From: Bacteroidota bacterium
GTDB taxonomy: Bacteria; Bacteroidota; Bacteroidia; SXHM01
Length of the DNA stretch: 39,752 nucleotides
NCBI GenBank assembly: GCA_947479755.1
Contig: CANKAM010000033.1
Coordinates: forward strand, 1 to 39,752
Reading direction: 5' to 3'
Part shown: one piece after another, positions 7,027-25,497 of the stretch
Layout: the number at the start of each line of letters is the position of its first letter
How positions within the stretch are numbered: position 1 is the stretch's first letter
The notes under the pieces: generated by a model
What the model was told of the DNA's origin: nothing
Database searches by the model: none
The model's input: the letters and a program-made list of their open reading frames with translations, nothing else
Made by a program: the position numbers and the translations under genes

Positions 7027-8268
7027 ATGATACAATTTGAAAAACATACACTAAGTAACGGGTTAAAAGTGATTGTTCACGAAGACCGCTCTACTCCTAT
7101 TGCAGCTATGAACATATTATATGATGTAGGCGCCCGCGATGAGGATGCAGACAAAACAGGTTTCGCCCATTTATTTGAGCATCTGATGTTTGGCGGTTCG
7201 GTAAATATTCCCAACTATGATGAGCCTTTGCAGAATGTGGGCGGTGAAAATAATGCCTTTACCAGCAACGATATTACCAACTATTATTTAACGCTTCCTG
7301 CACAAAATCTGGAGACAGGTTTTTGGCTCGAAAGTGATAGGATGCTGAGCCTTGCTTTCTCTGAAAAAAGCCTGGAAGTGCAGCGCAGTGTGGTAATTGA
7401 AGAATTTCGTCAGCGCTACTTAAATCAGCCTTACGGTGATGTGTGGCTGAAATTGAAACCCCTTGCCTACAAAGTGCATCCTTATTTATGGAACACAATA
7501 GGCAAAGAAATTTCGCACATTGAAAATGCTACGATGGATGATGTAAAAGCATTTTTCAAAAAACATTACCTGCCTAACAATGCTATTCTTTCTGTTGCCG
7601 GAAACGTGAAAACAGATGAAGTATTAAAGCTGGCAGAAAAATGGTTCGGTCCAATTGCGAAAGGCGAAAAGAAGGAACGTAAGCTTCCGGTTGAGCCACC
7701 GCAAATAGAAGAACGTAAAGAGGAAACCACTGCTGATGTCCCTTACGATGCTATCTATAAAGCATGGCACATGTGCGACCGTAAAAATCCCGACTACTAT
7801 ACCTTTGATGTTATCTCAGAATTATTCTCGCGCGGAAAATCTTCACGTCTGTATGTTGAACTGGTAAAGAATAAAAAGCTTTTCAGCGAAATCAACGCTT
7901 ACATTTCTGGTGATGATGATCCGGGATTATTGGTAATTGCCGGAAAAGTTTCGGAGGGCGTTGACATGAAAACAGCTGAAGCCGGTATTGCCGAGGAAGT
8001 AAATAAGCTGTGCTCAACTGTTGTAGATGCAAATGAACTTCAGAAAATAAAAAACAACATGGAAGCATCACTTGTTTTTTCTGAAATGGGAGTTGAAGGA
8101 AAAGCGCTGAACCTTGCCATCTTTGAACTGATGGGTGATGCAGAGGGAGTAAATCAGGAAGCTGAAAAATACCAATCTGTAAGAGTTGAAAAGGTAAAAG
8201 AACTTGCCGAAAAAACGCTGGTAGATACCAATTGCTCAACACTTTATTATCACGCTAAAAAATCTTAA
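7027..8268 (+). CDS. M16 family zinc metallopeptidase, catalytic subunit
   Basis: A 413-residue peptidase of the pitrilysin/processing-peptidase family. The inverted zinc motif HxxEH is HLFEH at residues 48-52, and the third ligand glutamate lies about 77 residues on, in VIEEFRQRY (E125/E126). Substrate-channel features such as GGENNAFTSNDITNYY are present. There is no signal peptide, so it is cytosolic or exported by an unseen route. It pairs with the adjacent non-catalytic M16 gene, the common two-gene arrangement for heterodimeric bacterial M16 enzymes. Its stop codon lies at the edge of a palindromic repeat. Confidence 0.92.
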   Translation: MIQFEKHTLSNGLKVIVHEDRSTPIAAMNILYDVGARDEDADKTGFAHLFEHLMFGGSVNIPNYDEPLQNVGGENNAFTSNDITNYYLTLPAQNLETGFWLESDRMLSLAFSEKSLEVQRSVVIEEFRQRYLNQPYGDVWLKLKPLAYKVHPYLWNTIGKEISHIENATMDDVKAFFKKHYLPNNAILSVAGNVKTDEVLKLAEKWFGPIAKGEKKERKLPVEPPQIEERKEETTADVPYDAIYKAWHMCDRKNPDYYTFDVISELFSRGKSSRLYVELVKNKKLFSEINAYISGDDDPGLLVIAGKVSEGVDMKTAEAGIAEEVNKLCSTVVDANELQKIKNNMEASLVFSEMGVEGKALNLAIFELMGDAEGVNQEAEKYQSVRVEKVKELAEKTLVDTNCSTLYYHAKKS

Positions 8269-8330
8269 CCGCAAAGACGCTAAGAACGCAAAGTAGATTA
8301 AACTTCGCGCCCTTTGCGCCTTAGCGGTAA
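8265..8330. repeat. Palindromic repeat between the two M16 genes
   Basis: CGCTAAGAACGCAAAG (8278-8293) is complementary to CTTTGCGCCTTAGCG (8312-8326) apart from one bulge/mismatch zone. TTAACCGC at 8265-8272 also pairs approximately with GCGGTAA at 8324-8330. It fills the 72-base gap between the two peptidase genes. The CGCTAAG/CGCAAAG word pattern resembles a high-copy interspersed repeat seen in environmental bacterial genomes (general knowledge), and its sequence is unrelated to the palindrome at 3626. Confidence 0.75.
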
Positions 8331-8340
8331 AACAAAAACT

Positions 8341-9627
8341 ATGGAAACCTTAGACAGAACCCAAGAACCCTCAGTAAAACCCTTTCCTGATATTGAATTA
8401 CAGGAAGCAGAACATATTACCCTTGCAAACGGATTACCGCTACATATCCTGAATTCAGGAACACAGGATGTATTGCAGGTAGAATTTCTTTTTTCGGCAG
8501 GAGCACTGAAGCAGCCGGCACGCCTGGTTGCAGCAATGACAATCGAAGCCATAGGAGAAGGAACTGACTCGCGCACTTCAAAAGAAATATCGGAGCAATT
8601 AGATTTCTATGGCGCTTACATGAAAACCGATTCTTCACGTGACACACCTGCGCTGGTGCTTTATACGCTGAGCAAACATTTGGACAAAACCCTGCCTGTA
8701 ATAAAAGATGTATTGCTGAACGCTTCGTATCCCGAGAACGAGCTGAAAACCTACCGTGAAAACAGCAAACAAAAACTAATCTCGGGCGAAAAGAAAGTTT
8801 CTACCCTGGCTTCAAAACTTATCTACGGAATGCTTTATGGAGAAAATCATCCTTTCGGATACCGGGTTATTCCTGAAGATTTTGATAAGGTAACTCGCGA
8901 ACAATTATTAGATTTTCATCGTGCACACTACCGCTCCTTAGATTGCGATGTTATTATTTCGGGAAGAGTAACTCAGGAAGTTATAGAAACTTTCAAAAAA
9001 GAATTTGGAAGCGTTCCGACAAAGATTTCGGCATTTAATAACAACACACCCACTCCCCTGCCTTCTTCCGAAAAAAAGCAGGTACATGAAGTGCCGAATG
9101 TTGTGCAAAGTGCTATTAAACTTGCCCGTCCGCTGTTCAGCAAAACGCATCCTGATTATATTCCGTTGCAGGTTTTGAATACGGTGTTTGGCGGTTATTT
9201 CGGTTCGCGCCTTATGACCAATATCCGGGAAGATAAAGGCTACACGTATGGAATTGGCTCAGGACTTATTCCGTTGGGAACCACAGGAATCTGGTCAATA
9301 GGCAGCGAAGTTGGAGTTGAAGTAACCAAGGCAACACTGAAAGAAATTTATGCTGAGATGAAAATCCTGCGCGAAGAACCTGTGTCGCAGGAAGAATTAG
9401 ATACCGTTAAAAGTTATATGCTGGGTGTATTCCTTAAAGATGTGGATGGCCCATTTGCATTGGCAGAAAAATACATCAGCTTGCTGAAATACGATTTAGA
9501 TTATTCATACTACCAGTGCTGGATAAAAACAGTGAAAACTATTACTCCTGCTGAAATTCAGGCACTCGCCAACAAGTATTTGCGCGAGGAAGATTTTTAT
9601 GAATTGGTGGTAGGGAAACTGGGATAA
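8341..9627 (+). CDS. M16 family peptidase-like protein, non-catalytic subunit
   Basis: A 428-residue partner of the upstream M16 peptidase. The start ATG at 8341 (METLDRTQEPSV) is preferred over an open frame from 8314, which runs through the palindromic repeat. It has the M16 fold signatures LANGLPLHILNSG, FLFSAGALKQPAR and GGYFGSRLMTNIREDKGYTYGIGS (the C-terminal R/Y motif region), but where the catalytic subunit has HLFEH it reads VAAMTIEAIGEG. Zinc binding and catalysis are therefore lost. The R-Y motif retained in the C-terminal half is known to help bind substrate in heterodimeric M16 enzymes. It ends one base from the stop of the convergent glycosyltransferase. Confidence 0.9.
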   Translation: METLDRTQEPSVKPFPDIELQEAEHITLANGLPLHILNSGTQDVLQVEFLFSAGALKQPARLVAAMTIEAIGEGTDSRTSKEISEQLDFYGAYMKTDSSRDTPALVLYTLSKHLDKTLPVIKDVLLNASYPENELKTYRENSKQKLISGEKKVSTLASKLIYGMLYGENHPFGYRVIPEDFDKVTREQLLDFHRAHYRSLDCDVIISGRVTQEVIETFKKEFGSVPTKISAFNNNTPTPLPSSEKKQVHEVPNVVQSAIKLARPLFSKTHPDYIPLQVLNTVFGGYFGSRLMTNIREDKGYTYGIGSGLIPLGTTGIWSIGSEVGVEVTKATLKEIYAEMKILREEPVSQEELDTVKSYMLGVFLKDVDGPFALAEKYISLLKYDLDYSYYQCWIKTVKTITPAEIQALANKYLREEDFYELVVGKLG

Positions 9628-17533: not shown

Positions 17534-18130
17534 TCAGCTCATTAACTTTTGCAGTTCATTCAATAATTCAGGCAGTATTTGCAACTGTGGCTTTTCATTA
17601 GAAATAGTTGCAGCAAACCGTTTAAGTTTTTCAGAAGCTTTTAAATAATTCTCCTTTTCAAGCACGTAAATGTCAAAACTGCTGTCGTTTGATGTTTCAT
17701 GCAAACGAAAACCCAACGTAAGATTGTAGCGAACTGCAACTGAATTTTCGCGACTAACCTTTGCAAAATAGTTCAGTAAGCCAAAGTTTTCAAAGAAACA
17801 CTCTAACATAGCAAGCGAAGCAAGAACAGGAATATGAGTTCCAAGATAGTTTTTGTCCCATATAAACAAACCTGCATCGGCTGTCTTGTCTTTCCAGTTA
17901 ATATGTGAGGTATGAATCAAACCGACTTTTACGCCCTTGTAATTAATGAGAAAATAAAAATCAGAAAGCGGGTTTAATGAATTATACCACATTTTCTGCT
18001 CTTCTTCTGTTATGAATTTCTGATATTCCATAACACTGCTTATTTCTTTTGAATTACGCCAATAGCGAACCAATTCAACATCTTCAAGCGTAAGTTGTGA
18101 AAGTGTAATTCCGAAATTGCGGATAATCAT
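17534..18130 (-). CDS. GNAT-family N-acetyltransferase, PseH/RimJ-like
   Basis: A 198-residue cytosolic acyltransferase of the GNAT fold. The N-terminal region ITLSQLTLEDVELVRYWRNSKEISSVMEYQ resembles PseH-type enzymes that acetylate 4-amino groups on dideoxy sugars (xxELVxxWRN); the acetyl-CoA-binding strand-turn region is about residues 95-135 (DKNYLGTHIP). Last gene of a four-gene minus-strand operon after ACP, KAS III and GT2. Its ATG overlaps the GT2 stop as TGATG, indicating translational coupling. With an ACP and KAS in the same operon, the acyl donor may be acyl-ACP rather than acetyl-CoA; that is inference. Substrate unknown. Confidence 0.8.
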   Translation of the reverse strand: MIIRNFGITLSQLTLEDVELVRYWRNSKEISSVMEYQKFITEEEQKMWYNSLNPLSDFYFLINYKGVKVGLIHTSHINWKDKTADAGLFIWDKNYLGTHIPVLASLAMLECFFENFGLLNYFAKVSRENSVAVRYNLTLGFRLHETSNDSSFDIYVLEKENYLKASEKLKRFAATISNEKPQLQILPELLNELQKLMS

Positions 18131-19050
18131 CAGAGAACAGTTTTCACGGTATAAGATGGTTTTCCTGTTTCACCAATATAAAGCCTGCGGATATACTCAC
18201 CAATAATACCAAGGCTGAAGAGTATTAATCCTGTTGAGAAAAAAATGGAAACAATCAGCGTAGTAAAACCGAGCTCAGCTCCGTAATTATATTTCATGTA
18301 GATGAAATAACACACAAAACCAAGACAAATAAGTGCAGATAATAAACCAAACCATGAAATTATTTTCAGTGGAAATGCGGTATAACCCACGACTAATTTC
18401 AGCGTTATTTTAAATAATTTAAACAGCGTGTAACCTGATTGCCCTTCTTTGCGAGGCAAATGTTCTACTACAACATGTTCAATATTATCAGTATGCCAGG
18501 CAAGAATTTCGTCCAAAAAAAACATGCGATAGTTGCGTGAAATGACTTTTTCCGTTACTGAAGAATTGATGAGTTTAAACGAAGAACCTTTGCCGGACAT
18601 ATTGGCAAAGTTTTTAAAGATTTTGCCAACAAACCAACTTCCTGCATTACGAATCAAGGAATGCTCTTTCTTTTCATAGTAACCGTAAACCAACTCTGCT
18701 CCTGTATTTTCCTGTGCAAGCAAAAGCTTTTCAATCTCTTCCGGTGGTGTTTGCAAGTCATCGTCAATGGTTATTACCCACTCTCCTCTTATAAAAGTTA
18801 GTCCGCAAAAAAGCGCATTGTGCTGACCGTAATTTTGTGTGAGTTTTACGGCAGTAACAGTTTGTGGATTTTTCTTCTTTAACGATGAAAGTACTTCCCA
18901 ACTCTTGTCTGCGCTGCCATCATCAACAAAAATAACTTCGAATGACTTTTGCTTTTTGGTAAAATATTTTTCGATGCGCAGATAGAGATCTGCCAACGTT
19001 TTCTCGCTGTTATAAACCGGAACAACTATTGAAAAATCTTTCTTATCCAT
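18130..19050 (-). CDS. Family 2 glycosyltransferase, ArnC/GtrB/DPM1-like, membrane-anchored
   Basis: A 306-residue GT-A glycosyltransferase that likely transfers a sugar from a nucleotide donor to polyprenyl phosphate on the cytosolic face of the inner membrane. Motifs are FSIVVPVYNSEKTL (6-19), VDDGSADKS (42-50) and the DxD-type IDDDLQTPPEE (95-105). Two strong C-terminal membrane helices lie at about 228-250 and 262-290, followed by GEYIRRLY, as in ArnC and GtrB. The start abuts the KAS III stop with no gap; the stop overlaps the GNAT start by one base. The combination with ACP and KAS III is unusual for this family. Confidence 0.88.
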   Translation of the reverse strand: MDKKDFSIVVPVYNSEKTLADLYLRIEKYFTKKQKSFEVIFVDDGSADKSWEVLSSLKKKNPQTVTAVKLTQNYGQHNALFCGLTFIRGEWVITIDDDLQTPPEEIEKLLLAQENTGAELVYGYYEKKEHSLIRNAGSWFVGKIFKNFANMSGKGSSFKLINSSVTEKVISRNYRMFFLDEILAWHTDNIEHVVVEHLPRKEGQSGYTLFKLFKITLKLVVGYTAFPLKIISWFGLLSALICLGFVCYFIYMKYNYGAELGFTTLIVSIFFSTGLILFSLGIIGEYIRRLYIGETGKPSYTVKTVL

Positions 19051-20094
19051 TTAGATTTCTATTAATGGAAGGCAGGCTATTTTGTCTGTTTCCAGGATGG
19101 CAGTTCCCCATGAAAGCCCTACACCAAAACCTGAAAGCAGCAAAGATAATTTTTCGTTTGTAAGTTGCTCACGCAGTTGGGTTACCAGCGTAGTTGGGAT
19201 AGAAGCCGAACTTGTATTCCCGAAATCTTTCAATGAATACGGAACTTTTTCAGGTGCTATAGCAAGCTTCTTTCTTATAGCTTCATTCATCAACAAATTA
19301 GCCTGATGAAAAACAAAATAATCAACATCCTTAGTGTCTTTTCCGCAATAGGCAAGTAGCTGCTTTGCATCGGGAGCAACTTCTCGTAAGGAAAAGTTGA
19401 ACACATCCACGCCATTCATTATTAAATGTGTTTTGTTGCGCTCAATTCCTTCTGATATTTTTTCACTCCATAATGAAGCAGGTGAAATTTTATTTTTCAA
19501 TCCGCCATCAGGAATAATAATGGCATTGTATCCTTCCCCATCGTTATGCAGGCTGAAATGAATCACACTATCAGAAACATCCATTAAAGTTGCGCTGCCG
19601 GCATCGGAAAAAATGGGCGAAGTGCTTTTATCTTTTTCTGAAACAACGGAAGAAGAAACATCACCAACAAGCAATAATCCTTTTTTTGCGCCTGTTGTTT
19701 TAAGTAAGGATGACATAACCGAAAGTCCATATACATAGCCTGAACAACCCAGATTAATATCAAGTGCAATGCAGGCTTTTGGCAATCCCAGACGATGTTG
19801 CAATCTGATAGCAGTTGGTGGAATAATCCAATCGGGGGTTTGAGTAATAAAGAGCAAAACACCTATTTCAGATTTAACGCATTGCGTTTCGTGCAGCAGT
19901 TTTTCTGCTGCTTCAAAACATAGATCTGACGCGGTTAGCCCTTCAGGTGCTATTCTGCGGTTTTCTATTCCTGTGGTTTTAATAAATAATTCCTTCTCCT
20001 TGATTGTAGCAAAAGGATAGTCGTTATTAGAAACCTTTTGTTTCGGCACACTTACAGCAAGTCCGCTTAGTTTTATGCCTGAAACAGTAAACAC
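19051..20094 (-). CDS. 3-oxoacyl-ACP synthase III (KAS III/FabH-like)
   Basis: A 347-residue thiolase-fold condensing enzyme. The catalytic triad is intact: C117 in INLGCSGYVYGL, H263 in FVFHQAN, and N293 in DFGNTSSASIP. FabH normally starts fatty-acid synthesis by condensing acetyl-CoA with malonyl-ACP; homologues in glycan and lipid clusters make short acyl chains. Here it is flanked by its own ACP (16-base gap) and an ArnC-like glycosyltransferase rather than by fab genes, so a dedicated acyl-chain role is more likely than housekeeping synthesis. The TTGIENRR motif near the N terminus is standard. Confidence 0.9.
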   Translation of the reverse strand: MFTVSGIKLSGLAVSVPKQKVSNNDYPFATIKEKELFIKTTGIENRRIAPEGLTASDLCFEAAEKLLHETQCVKSEIGVLLFITQTPDWIIPPTAIRLQHRLGLPKACIALDINLGCSGYVYGLSVMSSLLKTTGAKKGLLLVGDVSSSVVSEKDKSTSPIFSDAGSATLMDVSDSVIHFSLHNDGEGYNAIIIPDGGLKNKISPASLWSEKISEGIERNKTHLIMNGVDVFNFSLREVAPDAKQLLAYCGKDTKDVDYFVFHQANLLMNEAIRKKLAIAPEKVPYSLKDFGNTSSASIPTTLVTQLREQLTNEKLSLLLSGFGVGLSWGTAILETDKIACLPLIEI

Positions 20095-20110
20095 AAATCA
20101 GATTTTGGGG

Positions 20111-20356
20111 TTATGAATTAAGTATAGTCTTTTTATTCTGAACAACGGAAAATAAATCAGATACGGTTACGCAATCATGCAGGTTTTCAGCGGTGAGCGT
20201 TACTCCATATTCAGCATCAACCATGGCAATTAAAATCAGTGCTTGCATAGAATTCCAGGCATCTAATTGCTTATAAGGAGTTTCGGGCAGTATGGTGCCG
20301 GGAACAATATCAGCCAGTTCGGCTTCAAATATTTTTATAAAATCTTCGAGTTGCAT
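20111..20356 (-). CDS. Acyl carrier protein
   Basis: An 81-residue acidic carrier protein. The phosphopantetheine attachment serine is S36 in LDAWNSMQAL, replacing the usual DSL with NSM, as seen in specialised rather than fatty-acid-synthase ACPs. Helix II continues as ALILIAMVDAEYGV. It opens the operon ACP - KAS III - GT2 - GNAT; the start ATG at 20356 lies about 14 bases after an exact -7 box, fixing it as first gene. A holo-ACP synthase is not encoded nearby. Partner is presumably the adjacent KAS III. Confidence 0.88.
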   Translation of the reverse strand: MQLEDFIKIFEAELADIVPGTILPETPYKQLDAWNSMQALILIAMVDAEYGVTLTAENLHDCVTVSDLFSVVQNKKTILNS

Positions 20357-20370
20357 TTGCGGTAAAAAAG

Positions 20371-20378
20371 CAAAGATA
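20371..20378 (-). promoter_or_regulatory. -7 promoter box of the ACP-KAS III-GT2-GNAT operon
   Basis: The minus strand reads TATCTTTG, an exact TAnnTTTG match 14 bases before the ACP start codon. The predicted leader is about 8 bases. No distinct -33 TTG was found. Confidence 0.5.
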
Positions 20379-20462
20379 ATTTTAAAACCTAAATAGCATT
20401 AATGATTGATAGTCTATTTGGTTTTGGTGTGAGAGCGCTTTACACGGCCTCTAATATAAATT

Positions 20463-21320
20463 CTAAGACAACAACTTTAAACTTGCCTTATAGTCGTGGG
20501 GAATAAAACCCAGTTTTTTTAAATCGTCTGAGAACTCAACCCTTCTCAATGCCTTTAGTCCGACCAGGCTTTCTTTGCCAACTCCAGTGTTAATTCCCAG
20601 CAGTTTGGTGAGCGAAAGAATTATCTCCATGAGGGGGTAAGAGATATTGAACGTCAGCACCTTTTTGTTCAGTGCTTTTGCAAGCTCTTTGTAAAAATCG
20701 CAGTAAAGAACAGGTTCGGTTTCGGCAACCGTGAATGTTCCGTTCAGATTTTTGGTAATGATAATTTCAATGGCTTTCATGATATCTAAACTATGAACGG
20801 TATAAAGCGGCTGTTTACCTCCGTCAATAAGAGGAACAATGCCTTTTGACTTAATGTGTTTTACCATCTCCAGGAACAAACCTCCGTTGCCAATTACTAA
20901 TCCTGGGCGAATGATGGCATCGTCTTTTGCGTTAAACTCTTTTTCCAGAAGAAATTTCTGTTGTCCGTAAGCGGAAAGAGCATCAGCATGAGCCGACATA
21001 CTGCTGAAGAAAATATTTTTCTTCACTCCTGCATTGCGTGAAGCTTGCAGCAGCTTTTTTGTTCCTTCTATGTTTATGTTTTTTGCTTCTTCGCCTTTTA
21101 AATAAGCGCAATGAATAAATATGGTTGCATCATTAAAAAGATTTTTATCAAGTGGTTTTTCAAGACTGGATATTCTGTATTCAACACCCTGCACACGTTG
21201 AGCTGGTATGTTTCTGCAAAAGCCGATTACGTGATACCCCTGCTGAATAAAATGAGCGCAAAGCTGCGAACCGATAAAGCCGGTAGCGCCTGATATTGCT
21301 ATGGTTTCGTTTGTGTTCAT
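20463..21320 (-). CDS. NAD(P)-dependent epimerase/dehydratase (extended SDR)
   Basis: A 285-residue Rossmann-fold enzyme of the extended short-chain dehydrogenase family. The nucleotide-binding motif ISGATGFIGSQL gives G11xxG14xxG17. The active site is Y118-x3-K122 (AYGQQKFLLE) with serines in FFSSMSAH upstream. Substrates in this family are nucleotide sugars, sterols or other secondary alcohols; the short C-terminal domain does not decide. It is the last gene of a five-gene minus-strand operon and overlaps the GMC oxidoreductase by 4 bases (ATGA type), so it probably acts on the same or a sequential substrate. Confidence 0.87.
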   Translation of the reverse strand: MNTNETIAISGATGFIGSQLCAHFIQQGYHVIGFCRNIPAQRVQGVEYRISSLEKPLDKNLFNDATIFIHCAYLKGEEAKNINIEGTKKLLQASRNAGVKKNIFFSSMSAHADALSAYGQQKFLLEKEFNAKDDAIIRPGLVIGNGGLFLEMVKHIKSKGIVPLIDGGKQPLYTVHSLDIMKAIEIIITKNLNGTFTVAETEPVLYCDFYKELAKALNKKVLTFNISYPLMEIILSLTKLLGINTGVGKESLVGLKALRRVEFSDDLKKLGFIPHDYKASLKLLS

Positions 21321-22930
21321 TTCAGCGCGTTGAGTGCAACGTTATGTGCGTTTGCCATTAAACTCAATGTTAAGCCTTTTGCAGGAAGAAAGCGAAATCC
21401 GGAACCATCGGCTACAAAAATATTTTGTGTTCCGTGCAGTCTGCCATCGGATGAAAGAGAAAATGATTTCTCTTCTTTTTCAAAGGGAAGAACTCCTGCA
21501 TAGTGAATGCTGGAGCCCATTCCGGGGTCAATCATTTTTACAGGAAAGGCTCCGAGTTTGCGCATGGCTTTTTTGAACAGGCTGTTGCGTTCGGTGATTT
21601 TTTGTTTCTCTATTTCACTTAAGAGGTATTCGGCCTGCAAGTTGTCTCCTGAGATTTTTTTAGTGTCTTTTATAAGGCTCAATAACTTTTTACCTCCGCT
21701 TTTTTCGGGATGAAAAAGGCCCATGATGACAAAGGCCGGCATGAGAAAGTTCATCAATGAAATTCCATCGCGGAAGTTGACAGGTGCTTCTTTAATGATG
21801 CGGAAGAGCATGAGCGATTTGAAGCTGTAGAGCGATGCCATGGCAATGTCATCGCCCTGCATGTTGTTATCATGGAAGAGCGAGAGTTGTGCAAAGCCGG
21901 TAGTGTTGCGTTCAAAAGTTTTGCCGAGTTGCGAAATGTTGATGCAAGGGAAATAAGCGTAAGGATTGCAGAGCAGCGGCAGTGTTTGGTTTTCTTTACC
22001 GAAGGAACGAAGCACGATGCGTGCTGTGCCCAGCACACCTGGTGCAAGCACCAGTTTATATGTGCGGTAAATCTCTTCTTCGTTTTTTTCTTTGTTCCAG
22101 GTTGTGATTTCGACAACCCCATTCTCGATTTCTTTAAACTGCTTTAGAATGATACCGCCCTTGTAAGTGAAGTTGTTTTTCTTTTTCAGTTCGTTAACCG
22201 TAATCCAAGGGCGGTAGGCACTCTCGCCTTTGTCGGAATAAAAATCAAAGTCTTGTGGTTGATAAGCTTTGCGGTTGTTGTAATCTTTAGTAATCAATGC
22301 TAGAGCCGTGCGGCCGAGGGAGAAATTATTGGCTTTAAACCAATCTACTTTTCTTTCATAGTTGTTTTTCAGGCTTTGCTGGCTGGAGTCAACCGGTGGC
22401 GGGGGCATGATGTTAGTTAGAAAAGAGGTCGTATAGTTTTTGATGTCGTCTTGTCCGCCTGAGATGCCGATGCGGTCGGCAACGGTTTGGTAGGCTGCTT
22501 TCATTTTTACAGGGTTGAGACCTGCGGCATTAAGTTCTGCATCGGAGAAAACGCATGAGCCGAGACCCCAACCGTTGCCGAGACCACCATAGGCAAGACT
22601 TTCAACGGGGAAGAATGTTTTGGAAAAAATATCAAGAAATTTTTCGACTTCAGTGACCATGAATTTTCGCGGAGGCGTGAGTTGTGAACCGCTTCCGATT
22701 TTGTCCCACGAAATGCTTTCGAATTTTTTGCCGAGCAGGTAGTCGCTCTGGTTTTCATCGGTCTGGCGGAATGCTGTGAAATCTTTTTCGGGAATGAGCT
22801 TTGTGTAGGTATCATCGGTGATTCCGGCATCGAGCATGAGGACTTTTATACCTGCTTCAACAAGGGTTTGTGCAGCCATAGCACCGGTGCAACCGGAGCC
22901 GACAACGATGTATGGATGCACTTCGCTCAT
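21317..22930 (-). CDS. GMC family FAD-dependent oxidoreductase
   Basis: A 537-residue flavoprotein of the glucose-methanol-choline oxidoreductase superfamily. The FAD dinucleotide fold is IVVGSGCTGAMAAQTLVEAG (8-27) with LMLDAG after it; YGGLGNGWGLGS matches the second GMC signature region. The C-terminal active site is SIHYAGVLPF (catalytic His) with a following VADGSGFRFLPAKGLTLSLMANAHNVA, where N or H replaces the second catalytic residue. It overlaps the genes on both sides by 4 bases, so it belongs to a tightly coupled operon. No export signal is seen. It oxidises an alcohol that cannot be named from sequence. Confidence 0.88.
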   Translation of the reverse strand: MSEVHPYIVVGSGCTGAMAAQTLVEAGIKVLMLDAGITDDTYTKLIPEKDFTAFRQTDENQSDYLLGKKFESISWDKIGSGSQLTPPRKFMVTEVEKFLDIFSKTFFPVESLAYGGLGNGWGLGSCVFSDAELNAAGLNPVKMKAAYQTVADRIGISGGQDDIKNYTTSFLTNIMPPPPVDSSQQSLKNNYERKVDWFKANNFSLGRTALALITKDYNNRKAYQPQDFDFYSDKGESAYRPWITVNELKKKNNFTYKGGIILKQFKEIENGVVEITTWNKEKNEEEIYRTYKLVLAPGVLGTARIVLRSFGKENQTLPLLCNPYAYFPCINISQLGKTFERNTTGFAQLSLFHDNNMQGDDIAMASLYSFKSLMLFRIIKEAPVNFRDGISLMNFLMPAFVIMGLFHPEKSGGKKLLSLIKDTKKISGDNLQAEYLLSEIEKQKITERNSLFKKAMRKLGAFPVKMIDPGMGSSIHYAGVLPFEKEEKSFSLSSDGRLHGTQNIFVADGSGFRFLPAKGLTLSLMANAHNVALNALK

Positions 22931-23304
22931 GCCAGTTTTACGAGTATAACACCGAACAGACCTGTAAGGACTGCACGTGTTCCGTGTAGAGCGGTTTTGA
23001 AAAATCCGTTTGCAGTTTTTTTATTGTAGGATGATGAAAGTAAGGGGAAATATGCGGGACGGGTTTCGAGGATGCAGAGGATGATGTAGATATTTTTGCG
23101 ATACAAGGAAAGTGGTTGTGTAAGCGCAAGACCACCGTCAATAAAGGAAATGAGAAAGGGGAAACGCATTGAGATCTGGTGTAAACGGTTTTCCTTTTCA
23201 GTGAATTCTATTTTATGATGCGCTATTGCGGCATGGTATAGTTCCAATGATTTTGCATCGGGATTTTTTCCGCTGAGGTAACGGAAATAGATTTCAGGCT
23301 GCAT
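22927..23304 (-). CDS. Unrecognised 125-residue protein, possible GMC small subunit
   Basis: Not recognised. The ATG at 23304 (MQPEIYFRYLSG) is preferred; the open frame continues to 23466, but those 54 residues overlie the upstream DUF2304 gene in another frame and look non-coding. The protein is basic (His, Lys and Arg rich), with hydrophobic stretches around FPFLISFIDGGLAL and RAVLTGLFGVILVKLA that could be amphipathic or membrane-associated. The layout ILETRPAYFPLLSSSY...FFKTAL resembles the small helical subunits or N-terminal domains that accompany some GMC oxidoreductases (such as gluconate dehydrogenase subunit 3). It overlaps the GMC gene by 4 bases and the DUF2304 gene by 11. Low confidence in function, good confidence it is translated. 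Confidence 0.6.
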   Translation of the reverse strand: MQPEIYFRYLSGKNPDAKSLELYHAAIAHHKIEFTEKENRLHQISMRFPFLISFIDGGLALTQPLSLYRKNIYIILCILETRPAYFPLLSSSYNKKTANGFFKTALHGTRAVLTGLFGVILVKLA

Positions 23305-23650
23305 TTTGTTTTTCGCTTGATTGGTGGTGTGCGCGCATGTTTGCGAGTTCCTGTGTAAGGCGTTTATTTTGTTCCTGCAGTTTGGAAACCACAATGGAAA
23401 GATGCAACAGGTAAATAAGAATTGCAAGAATGGAACCGATAAAAACAATATTGGGTGGTGAGGCAACTTCCACTATAGAGGCAACTACATCCAGACCACT
23501 GCGCCAGAAAGAGAAAATGATGAGAATAAGGGTACAGATTATCCATACGATGGCGTATTCTTCGCGCAGTTTACCTTTTATAATAAGCCGTGCAATAAAA
23601 ATAAGAAACAGAATACTTGCTGCTATGGCAATGATTTGAATTCTTTGCAT
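23294..23650 (-). CDS. DUF2304-type small membrane protein
   Basis: A 118-residue integral membrane protein. Three hydrophobic segments lie at about residues 3-22, 34-51 and 66-88, with the signature KGKLREEYAIVWIICTL between the first two; a short cytosolic coiled coil ends the protein (VSKLQEQNKRLTQELANMRAH). This matches the DUF2304 family, usually found next to a DPM1-like glycosyltransferase. Here the GT2 gene is 2 bases upstream. It may anchor the soluble GT2 to the membrane; that is inference from gene order. Confidence 0.82.
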   Translation of the reverse strand: MQRIQIIAIAASILFLIFIARLIIKGKLREEYAIVWIICTLILIIFSFWRSGLDVVASIVEVASPPNIVFIGSILAILIYLLHLSIVVSKLQEQNKRLTQELANMRAHHQSSEKQNAA

Positions 23651-23652
23651 GA

Positions 23653-24375
23653 TTAGTTAGTTTTTTTCAATCTCAAATATGTAAAAAAAATCGCCAGTGT
23701 AACCTTAAACATATAATAAACCGAGCCGGCAGTGTTGATGGAAGAAACGCCTCCCTGCCGCTCATTCATCTGCACAGCAAACTCACCGATGTTGAGTTTA
23801 TTTACTGCATAGAGTACAATGGCTTCGGGCTCGGGATACTCATCAGGATAATATTCGCTGACTACTTGAAGTGCTTTGCGGTTGAGCATGCGCATGCCGG
23901 AAGTAGAGTCTTTTACAGAAACGCCTACCAGCCAGTTATTAAGGTGATGAAAATAATTGATTCCCATTCTGCGCGCAAAGGTTGACTGAAAACCTTCGTT
24001 GGTAAGAAAACGGCTGCCTATGATGACATCTAAGTTTTTTGTTTTCAACTCTTCCAACATTTGGGGAATAAATTCGGGCGGATGTTGTCCGTCACCATCA
24101 ATTTGTATGGCGTAGTCAAAACCGTTTTCAAACGCGAAAATAAAACCGGTTTGCACTGCACCTCCAATGCCTAAGTTAACGGCAAGGTGAACGGGAATGC
24201 AATCGGCTTTGTCAATGATTTCGGCTGTGCGGTCTTTTGAGCAATCGTTGATAACTATAGGAATGTAGCGGGTTGCAGAAGCAGAACTATTGAGTGCATT
24301 GACAGAGGCGATGACGGCTGCAATAGCGCTTTCTTCGTTATAAGCAGGAATGATGACGGCTATCTTTTCAGACAT
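23653..24375 (-). CDS. Family 2 glycosyltransferase, DPM1-like without C-terminal membrane helices
   Basis: A 240-residue GT-A enzyme, predicted polyprenyl-phosphate glycosyltransferase. Motifs are IAVIIPAYNEESAI (5-18), VINDCSKDRT (41-50), the metal site IDGDGQHPPEF (92-102; D93 and D95), and the STSGMRMLNR acceptor region. It lacks the paired C-terminal membrane helices seen in the GT2 at 18130-19050, consistent with the DUF2304 gene immediately downstream supplying membrane attachment. It opens the five-gene operon and is preceded by a 150-base repeat-like intergenic region. Confidence 0.87.
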   Translation of the reverse strand: MSEKIAVIIPAYNEESAIAAVIASVNALNSSASATRYIPIVINDCSKDRTAEIIDKADCIPVHLAVNLGIGGAVQTGFIFAFENGFDYAIQIDGDGQHPPEFIPQMLEELKTKNLDVIIGSRFLTNEGFQSTFARRMGINYFHHLNNWLVGVSVKDSTSGMRMLNRKALQVVSEYYPDEYPEPEAIVLYAVNKLNIGEFAVQMNERQGGVSSINTAGSVYYMFKVTLAIFFTYLRLKKTN

Positions 24376-24525: not shown

Positions 24526-25497
24526 TCAGATAAGTCCTTCGCGCAATAAATCATGTAAATGAATAAATCCAACGAACTTTTCGGCATCTGTAACAACGAG
24601 TTGTGAAATGTTGTTGTCGCGCAAAATTTTCAAAGCATCCACCGCCATTTCGGTTGAAGAAATTGTTTTAGGATTTTTGTTCATGATGTCGGCAGCCTTG
24701 AGGTTGCTGATATTTTCATCGCGTTCCATCATTCTGCGCAAATCACCATCGGTAATTATTCCTGCCAATTTTTCTCCGTCAAGCACGGCCGTTGCGCCTA
24801 GTCGCTTGGAAGAAATTTCGAGGATGGCAGTTTTTATGCTGTCGCCTGCATTAACTTTTGGCGTTGCATTGTTTTTGTAAATGTCTGCAACGGTGAGGTA
24901 AAGTTGTTTGCCCAACGAACCACCGGGGTGAAAGTGTGCAAAATCTTTGCTCGTAAAATCGCGGCATTTCAAAAGACAAACTGCGAGTGCATCGCCCAGC
25001 GCCATTTGTGCAGTAGTGCTTGATGTGGGTGCTAAATTATTAGGGCAGGCTTCTTTTTCAACAGTGGCGTTCAATACGTAATTGGCTTGTTTTGCAAGAA
25101 ATGAATCGGTGTTGCAAACTAAGGCAATCAGTTTATTTCCGCTGCTTTTAAGTAAAGGAACCAATACTTTTATTTCGGGCGAGTTTCCACTTTTTGAAAT
25201 GCAGATAACCACATCATCGGTTTGTATGGTTCCTAAATCGCCATGCACAGCATCGGCAGCATGCATAAAACTGGCGGGAGTTCCCGTAGAATTTAGCGTT
25301 GCCACAATTTTATTAGCGATGATTGCGCTCTTCCCAATTCCGGTTATAACCACTCTTCCTTTTGAATAAAAGATGGTTTCAACCGTTTTTACAAAATCAG
25401 AATCGATGAACTGCACGAGGTTTCGCACGGAATCTGCCTCTATTGCTAAAGTTTCACGGGCTATATGTATTAGTTCATCGGCACTTTTCACGGGCAA
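24526..25497 (-). CDS. kdsD: D-arabinose-5-phosphate isomerase, KpsF/GutQ family
   Basis: A 323-residue cytosolic enzyme converting ribulose-5-phosphate to arabinose-5-phosphate, the first step of Kdo synthesis for lipopolysaccharide. An N-terminal SIS domain (about residues 30-170) has GRVVITGIGKSAIIANKI and ISKSGNSPEI; two CBS domains follow (about 205-323, TAVLDGEKLAGIITDGDLRR and SQLVVTDAEKFVGFIHLHDLLR). The start is not ATG: TTG at 25497 or GTG at 25491 (VKSADELI) are both possible. A minus-strand TACTTTTG (25590 to 25583) is an exact -7 box within the divergent gap shared with recQ. Confidence 0.92.
   Translation of the reverse strand: MPVKSADELIHIARETLAIEADSVRNLVQFIDSDFVKTVETIFYSKGRVVITGIGKSAIIANKIVATLNSTGTPASFMHAADAVHGDLGTIQTDDVVICISKSGNSPEIKVLVPLLKSSGNKLIALVCNTDSFLAKQANYVLNATVEKEACPNNLAPTSSTTAQMALGDALAVCLLKCRDFTSKDFAHFHPGGSLGKQLYLTVADIYKNNATPKVNAGDSIKTAILEISSKRLGATAVLDGEKLAGIITDGDLRRMMERDENISNLKAADIMNKNPKTISSTEMAVDALKILRDNNISQLVVTDAEKFVGFIHLHDLLREGLI

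Follow-up and report, generated by a model that had tools for sequence, protein, structure and literature searches.

A five-gene operon of Bacteroidota that may remodel lipid-linked sugars with a GMC-type oxidoreductase and a co-occurring 125-residue protein

A contig of 39,752 nt from a Bacteroidota bacterium (CANKAM010000033.1, assembly GCA_947479755.1), referred to here in its full length as the window, carries on its minus strand five consecutive genes, from position 24375 to 20463, whose products probably assemble a sugar on a membrane lipid and go on to alter it by an oxidation and a reduction. In order of transcription they encode a GT2 glycosyltransferase, a DUF2304 membrane protein, a 125-residue protein termed here the orphan, a GMC-type FAD oxidoreductase and an extended short-chain dehydrogenase/reductase (SDR). 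A comparison across Bacteroidia suggests that these products behave as one functional set. Our preferred reading, to which we assign a probability of about 45%, is that of a membrane-associated sugar-remodelling operon in which the GMC enzyme and the SDR would bring about net epimerisation of a lipid-linked sugar.

To establish how these genes are distributed, 395 Bacteroidia genomes were examined by profile searches, the DNA around each GMC gene was extracted and searched with iterated hidden Markov models, and a profile built from 27 orphans was run independently on the same genomes. The GMC enzyme is found in 34 of the 395 genomes and the orphan in 33, all of which are among the 34 (hypergeometric P about 2e-47, a value that, like the Fisher P values given below, ignores lineage and shared ancestry). 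The one GMC genome in which the orphan was not detected, G300, is 72% complete. A preliminary description of this DNA had taken the 125-residue protein to be a partner, and the 33/33 co-occurrence with the GMC enzyme supports a real partnership. At 27 of the 34 loci the orphan gene immediately precedes the GMC gene, and 29 include an SDR homologue. A better argument than the P values is provided by absences within families and by unlinked copies. Because GMC and orphan occur together in at least 13 families, several of them with a patchy distribution (for example f9, f20, f41 and f45), the joint pattern is not the inheritance of one clade alone. Six genomes carry the orphan away from the GMC gene, in five of them beside DUF2304, and in genome G052 the set is split into GT2-DUF2304-orphan and GMC-SDR. 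It is this combination of co-occurrence, linkage, unlinked orphans beside DUF2304 and the division seen in G052 that argues for a single functional set. Searches of the open-access literature on DUF2304-, GMC- or polyprenyl-related systems yielded no description of the GMC module.

In the window, all five genes were confirmed as open reading frames (ORFs). The GT2 gene (23653-24375) is separated by a 2-base gap from the DUF2304 gene (23294-23650), which overlaps the orphan gene (22927-23304) by 11 bases; the orphan and GMC (21317-22930) genes share the 4-base overlap ATGA, and the GMC and SDR (20463-21320) genes also overlap by 4 bases. The three overlaps listed in the preliminary description are thus exact, and the single transcript that it proposed is upheld as a transcript-like unit. 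All five genes are kept in the same order in five congeners, with overlaps identical to those of the window in L002 and L003 and nearly identical in the remaining ones. Upstream of GT2, at 24526-25497, lies a KdsD/KpsF-like gene that by eye is of the SIS/CBS type. In L002, L003 and L006 it ends 3-4 bases from GT2, and the transcript may start at this gene in some relatives.

The first two genes point to a lipid-linked sugar. The GT2 protein (240 aa, PF00535 1.1e-25) has no transmembrane (TM) anchor of its own and resembles polyprenyl-phosphate-sugar synthases, with a catalytic domain of the DPM/GtrB type. Its best match in the PDB is DPM synthase (5mlz, 1.3e-11), followed by GtrB sll0501 and ArnC. 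In NCBIfam, PpgS ranks first (3.3e-24), with a score under the equivalog threshold. Assignment as a PpgS equivalog (NF058614) was rejected at 85.5 bits against a curated cut-off of 370. The adjoining DUF2304 gene, whose pairing with GT2 is conserved within the genus, encodes a small membrane protein of the GacJ/Rv3632 type (PF10066 2e-26). A soluble GT2 gene followed by a gene for a DUF2304-type small membrane protein is also the arrangement of GacI/GacJ of Streptococcus, which makes C55-P-GlcNAc (GlcNAc, N-acetylglucosamine), and of PpgS/Rv3632 of Mycobacterium tuberculosis, which makes polyprenyl-P-GalNAc (GalNAc, N-acetylgalactosamine). We take Rv3632 to be a DUF2304 protein, in line with a control match in Corynebacterium glutamicum. 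The DUF2304 domain is typical of GacJ-like proteins encoded beside GacI homologues (PMC8327497). Unlike those systems as described, the pair in the window continues into the orphan, GMC and SDR genes. The DUF2304 protein is likely an anchor or activator of the soluble GT2, and the known arrangements lend support to the earlier proposal that it serves as membrane partner.

Outside the genus, DUF2304 is present in 21 of 28 GMC genomes versus 37 of 360 other genomes (Fisher P 7e-14). In four of the seven GMC genomes that lack it (L051, L061, L062 and L064), an ArnC-like GT2 is encoded close to the orphan or the GMC gene, as if one anchored ArnC-like enzyme replaced the soluble GT2 and its DUF2304 protein. 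The orphan-GMC-SDR module would appear to be fed by a polyprenyl-phosphate-sugar synthase in either form, GT2 with DUF2304 or GT2 with membrane helices of its own. In L053, L058 and L061 the neighbours of the module include polysaccharide-deacetylase and GNAT genes, and genes of matching size and place occur in L060 and L062. As the deacetylase and GNAT genes adjoin the module in some relatives, we suggest that the sugar bears an amino group.

The GMC-type enzyme (537 aa) represents a distinct subfamily. Its Pfam match is weak (PF05199 2e-4, just below the gathering cut-off), and the FAD motif GxGxxG of the superfamily (G11, G13 and G16 invariant) and the C-terminal domain are both present. 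His476 and Lys518 are invariant in the family alignment. The nearest PDB entries to the GMC profile are sugar oxidoreductases, namely cellobiose dehydrogenase (1e-8) and pyranose oxidase (5e-8), with further matches to glucose and fructose dehydrogenases and paromomycin C 6-oxidase. With GMC sugar oxidoreductases such as pyranose oxidase/C-glycoside 3-oxidase, cellobiose dehydrogenase and paromomycin C 6-oxidase, the enzyme shares the FAD-binding N-terminus, the C-terminal His motif and these profile matches; it differs from them in its obligate orphan partner and at the usual second His/Asn position, which in our alignment is Gly519, beside the invariant Lys518. Distant relatives occur on Rhizobium plasmids (about 24% identity); in the one record inspected, the gene has a GHMP kinase, a HAD-IIIA hydrolase and an epimerase among its neighbours and an NAD(P)-dependent oxidoreductase right beside it, a sugar-gene cluster that would favour oxidation of a sugar. 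Identity with the mycofactocin protein MftG was rejected (28.9 bits against a curated cut-off of 400 bits), and a structure model of the GMC enzyme from a six-row alignment was not used (pLDDT 31). At locus L070 (G061, 7977-9595) the GMC gene is divided between two reading frames and contains an in-frame TGA, owing to either loss of function as a pseudogene or a sequencing error, and the orphan and SDR genes there are intact.

The last gene of the operon encodes an epimerase/reductase-like extended SDR of 285 aa (PF01370 9e-13). In an alignment of 29 homologues, its GAxGFxG motif, Ser106/107 and Tyr118-x3-Lys122 are invariant in 29/29. The SDR thus has the intact active site looked for in a DprE2-like reductase.

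The orphan had no convincing match in Pfam, NCBIfam, PHROGs or the PDB, by sequence or by profile. The structure prediction and fold search that the preliminary description had recommended produced an AlphaFold2 model (alignment with six close homologues, mean pLDDT 69) with seven helices, the final one at residues 101-124. In nearly all 27 members the 19 most hydrophobic consecutive residues fall inside the last 28 or so residues of the protein. The copy in the window was scanned as an ORF starting from a TTG upstream of the gene, and its maximum came to lie in this artefactual extension; in L003 the maximum is further upstream. The orphan is predicted to be all-helical with a C-terminal hydrophobic helix, and the least risky role to infer is that of a membrane-docking or assembly subunit for the GMC oxidase. 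Because a phylum-wide genome sample contained no orphan beyond the window's own genome, the family looks confined, within that sampling, to part of Bacteroidia. In family f37 (L052, L057 and L069) a LigB-like dioxygenase gene is located just downstream of the GMC gene, and the orphan is located elsewhere, beside DUF2304 in several genomes. In four f37 genomes (L086, L087, L088 and L089) the unlinked orphan, or its DUF2304, is found downstream of a hexapeptide-repeat, gamma-carbonic-anhydrase-like gene.

Taken together, these gene families suggest the following pathway. GT2 with DUF2304 would move a sugar, probably GlcNAc or GalNAc, from UDP onto polyprenyl phosphate, most likely to give an undecaprenyl-phosphate amino sugar. 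With the orphan holding the flavoenzyme at the membrane, the GMC enzyme would turn a single ring hydroxyl of the lipid-bound sugar into a ketone by oxidation, and the SDR would reduce this ketone with NAD(P)H, so that epimerisation, rather than another redox outcome, would be the net result. In some relatives the amino group may also be de-N-acetylated and then re-acylated. After flipping, the product would presumably serve a GT-C transferase whose gene lies elsewhere. The earlier proposal that the operon builds and oxidises a lipid-linked molecule agrees with the GT2-DUF2304 arrangement and the gene families, which favour building and redox modification.

The closest precedent is DprE1/DprE2, the decaprenyl-phosphoryl-ribose epimerase of mycobacteria, in which an oxidase and a reductase are encoded together on a lipid-linked sugar pathway (PMC11127046). 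Both systems comprise a flavin oxidase and an NAD(P)-dependent SDR reductase, proposed in the window to act on a lipid-linked sugar; they differ in that the window oxidase is of the GMC type, the donor comes from a GT2 and not from a phosphoribosyltransferase, and an extra protein, the orphan, is present. A DprE1-type flavoprotein was considered for the window oxidase and rejected, since its Pfam matches are to GMC and general FAD families only. The oxidase is not homologous to DprE1 by Pfam, and the parallel is therefore one of analogy and not of homology. In a more specific and more tentative version of our reading, which we consider possible though rather doubtful, an amino sugar on polyprenyl phosphate would be epimerised by the SDR together with a GMC oxidase of a new subfamily, and the orphan would be the obligate subunit through which this oxidase docks at the membrane or transfers electrons; the operon would then be a convergent counterpart of DprE1/DprE2 in Bacteroidota, with an unrelated oxidase and an accessory protein. 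DprE1/DprE2 and their homologues are the main known case of epimerisation on a lipid carrier by two enzymes. If true, the reading would add a second, unrelated solution in Bacteroidota, with an unexpected route to carrier-bound sugars and a protein family not described before; the orphan-GMC pair, two genes always found together, offers a simple handle on it.

Several points weigh against net epimerisation of a lipid-linked sugar. The resemblance of the GMC enzyme to sugar oxidases is weak and lies mainly over the FAD-binding N-terminus, and with Gly519 in place of the second His/Asn, its catalysis may differ from the usual. The AlphaFold2 model of the orphan had no fold match in the PDB, and at seven loci the GMC gene does not adjoin the orphan gene, so that a physical partnership of the two proteins is putative. 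Finally, the operon contains no flippase or GT-C gene; GtrA and PMT_2 homologues are present elsewhere in the genome.

Other chemistries can be envisaged for the same genes. The GMC enzyme could oxidise the primary alcohol (C6) of a lipid-linked amino sugar to an aldehyde or acid, as 6-hydroxyparomomycin-type oxidases do, with the SDR a separate epimerase or reductase on a nucleotide or lipid sugar. Such a role would fit the match of the GMC profile over its C-terminal domain to 6'''-hydroxyparomomycin C oxidase, an amino-sugar 6-oxidase (E 1.7e-4), and the membership of the SDR in an epimerase family. The tight adjacency of GMC and SDR, however, better suits coupled oxidation and reduction, and no conserved transaminase or aldehyde-using gene was seen beside GMC, and we regard C6 oxidation as unlikely. 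Somewhat less probable still is that the substrate of GMC and SDR is not a sugar but a lipid alcohol of fatty, isoprenoid or carotenoid type, to which GT2 adds a sugar to give a glycolipid. GMC members do include cholesterol oxidase and alcohol oxidases, and a fatty-acid desaturase or LigB-type dioxygenase is close by in some f37 loci; these f37 neighbours are lineage-specific, however, the characterised GT2-DUF2304 pairs use polyprenyl phosphate, and the deacetylase and GNAT neighbours indicate amino sugars.

A last alternative, put forward in the preliminary description, joins the five genes to the operon downstream of them (17534-20356, minus strand), which encodes an acyl carrier protein (ACP), a ketoacyl-ACP synthase (KAS III), an ArnC-like GT2 with TM helices and a PseH-like GNAT, in a single nine-gene lipid or glycan pathway. 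The two operons lie on the same strand and are directly adjacent in the window and in L004, the only such cases within the genus. Outside the genus, KAS III is present in 16/28 GMC genomes and in 48/360 others, an enrichment among the former (Fisher P 3e-7). The description was thus correct as to position in the window, but not in treating the operons as one unit. They are separated by a gap of 106 bases (20357-20462) that holds a promoter-like box, TATCTTTG, at 20378-20371, 15 bases before the ACP start, and this box is conserved in all four relatives (L003, L004 and L006 among them) though the sequence upstream differs. We take TATCTTTG to be a Bacteroidota -7-like element. Within the genus, about 6.5 kb with intervening genes separate KAS III from the GMC operon in L003 and L006, and KAS III is on contigs other than that of GMC in the fragmented genomes G003 and G005. 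Outside it, KAS III is near GMC at none of the 28 GMC loci, and the five loci of other families that were opened carry KAS III in an operon of its own (KAS-ACP-KAS-SDR-GT2-GNAT or close to it). The co-occurrence test that had been recommended for the two operons also goes against a joint pathway, with the outcome that the preliminary description had named as refuting it: KAS III occurs in 70 of the 395 genomes, 12 of the 28 GMC genomes outside the genus lack it, and 48 genomes have it without GMC. Nor do the two track each other within families, since the single GMC genome of f9 lacks KAS III and seven other f9 genomes have it, all three GMC genomes of f13 lack it, and most KAS III genomes of f20 lack GMC. 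The ACP operon stands apart from the GMC module as a unit of its own with a wider distribution; the nine-gene pathway is largely refuted, and we consider it very improbable.

The ACP operon can itself be compared, by gene content only, with the O-antigen R-group genes wfpC-D-E-F-G of Flavobacterium psychrophilum, whose predicted product is an ACP-bound acyl group destined for an amino sugar (PMC6519341). Two KAS, an ACP, a reductase and an acyltransferase are shared between that cluster and the ACP operon with its relatives, whereas the copy in the window has one KAS, a GNAT and an ArnC-like GT2 and lacks the reductase. In L003 (12502-16235) and L006 (12497-16305), sensor-like and response-regulator-like genes are located between the two operons.

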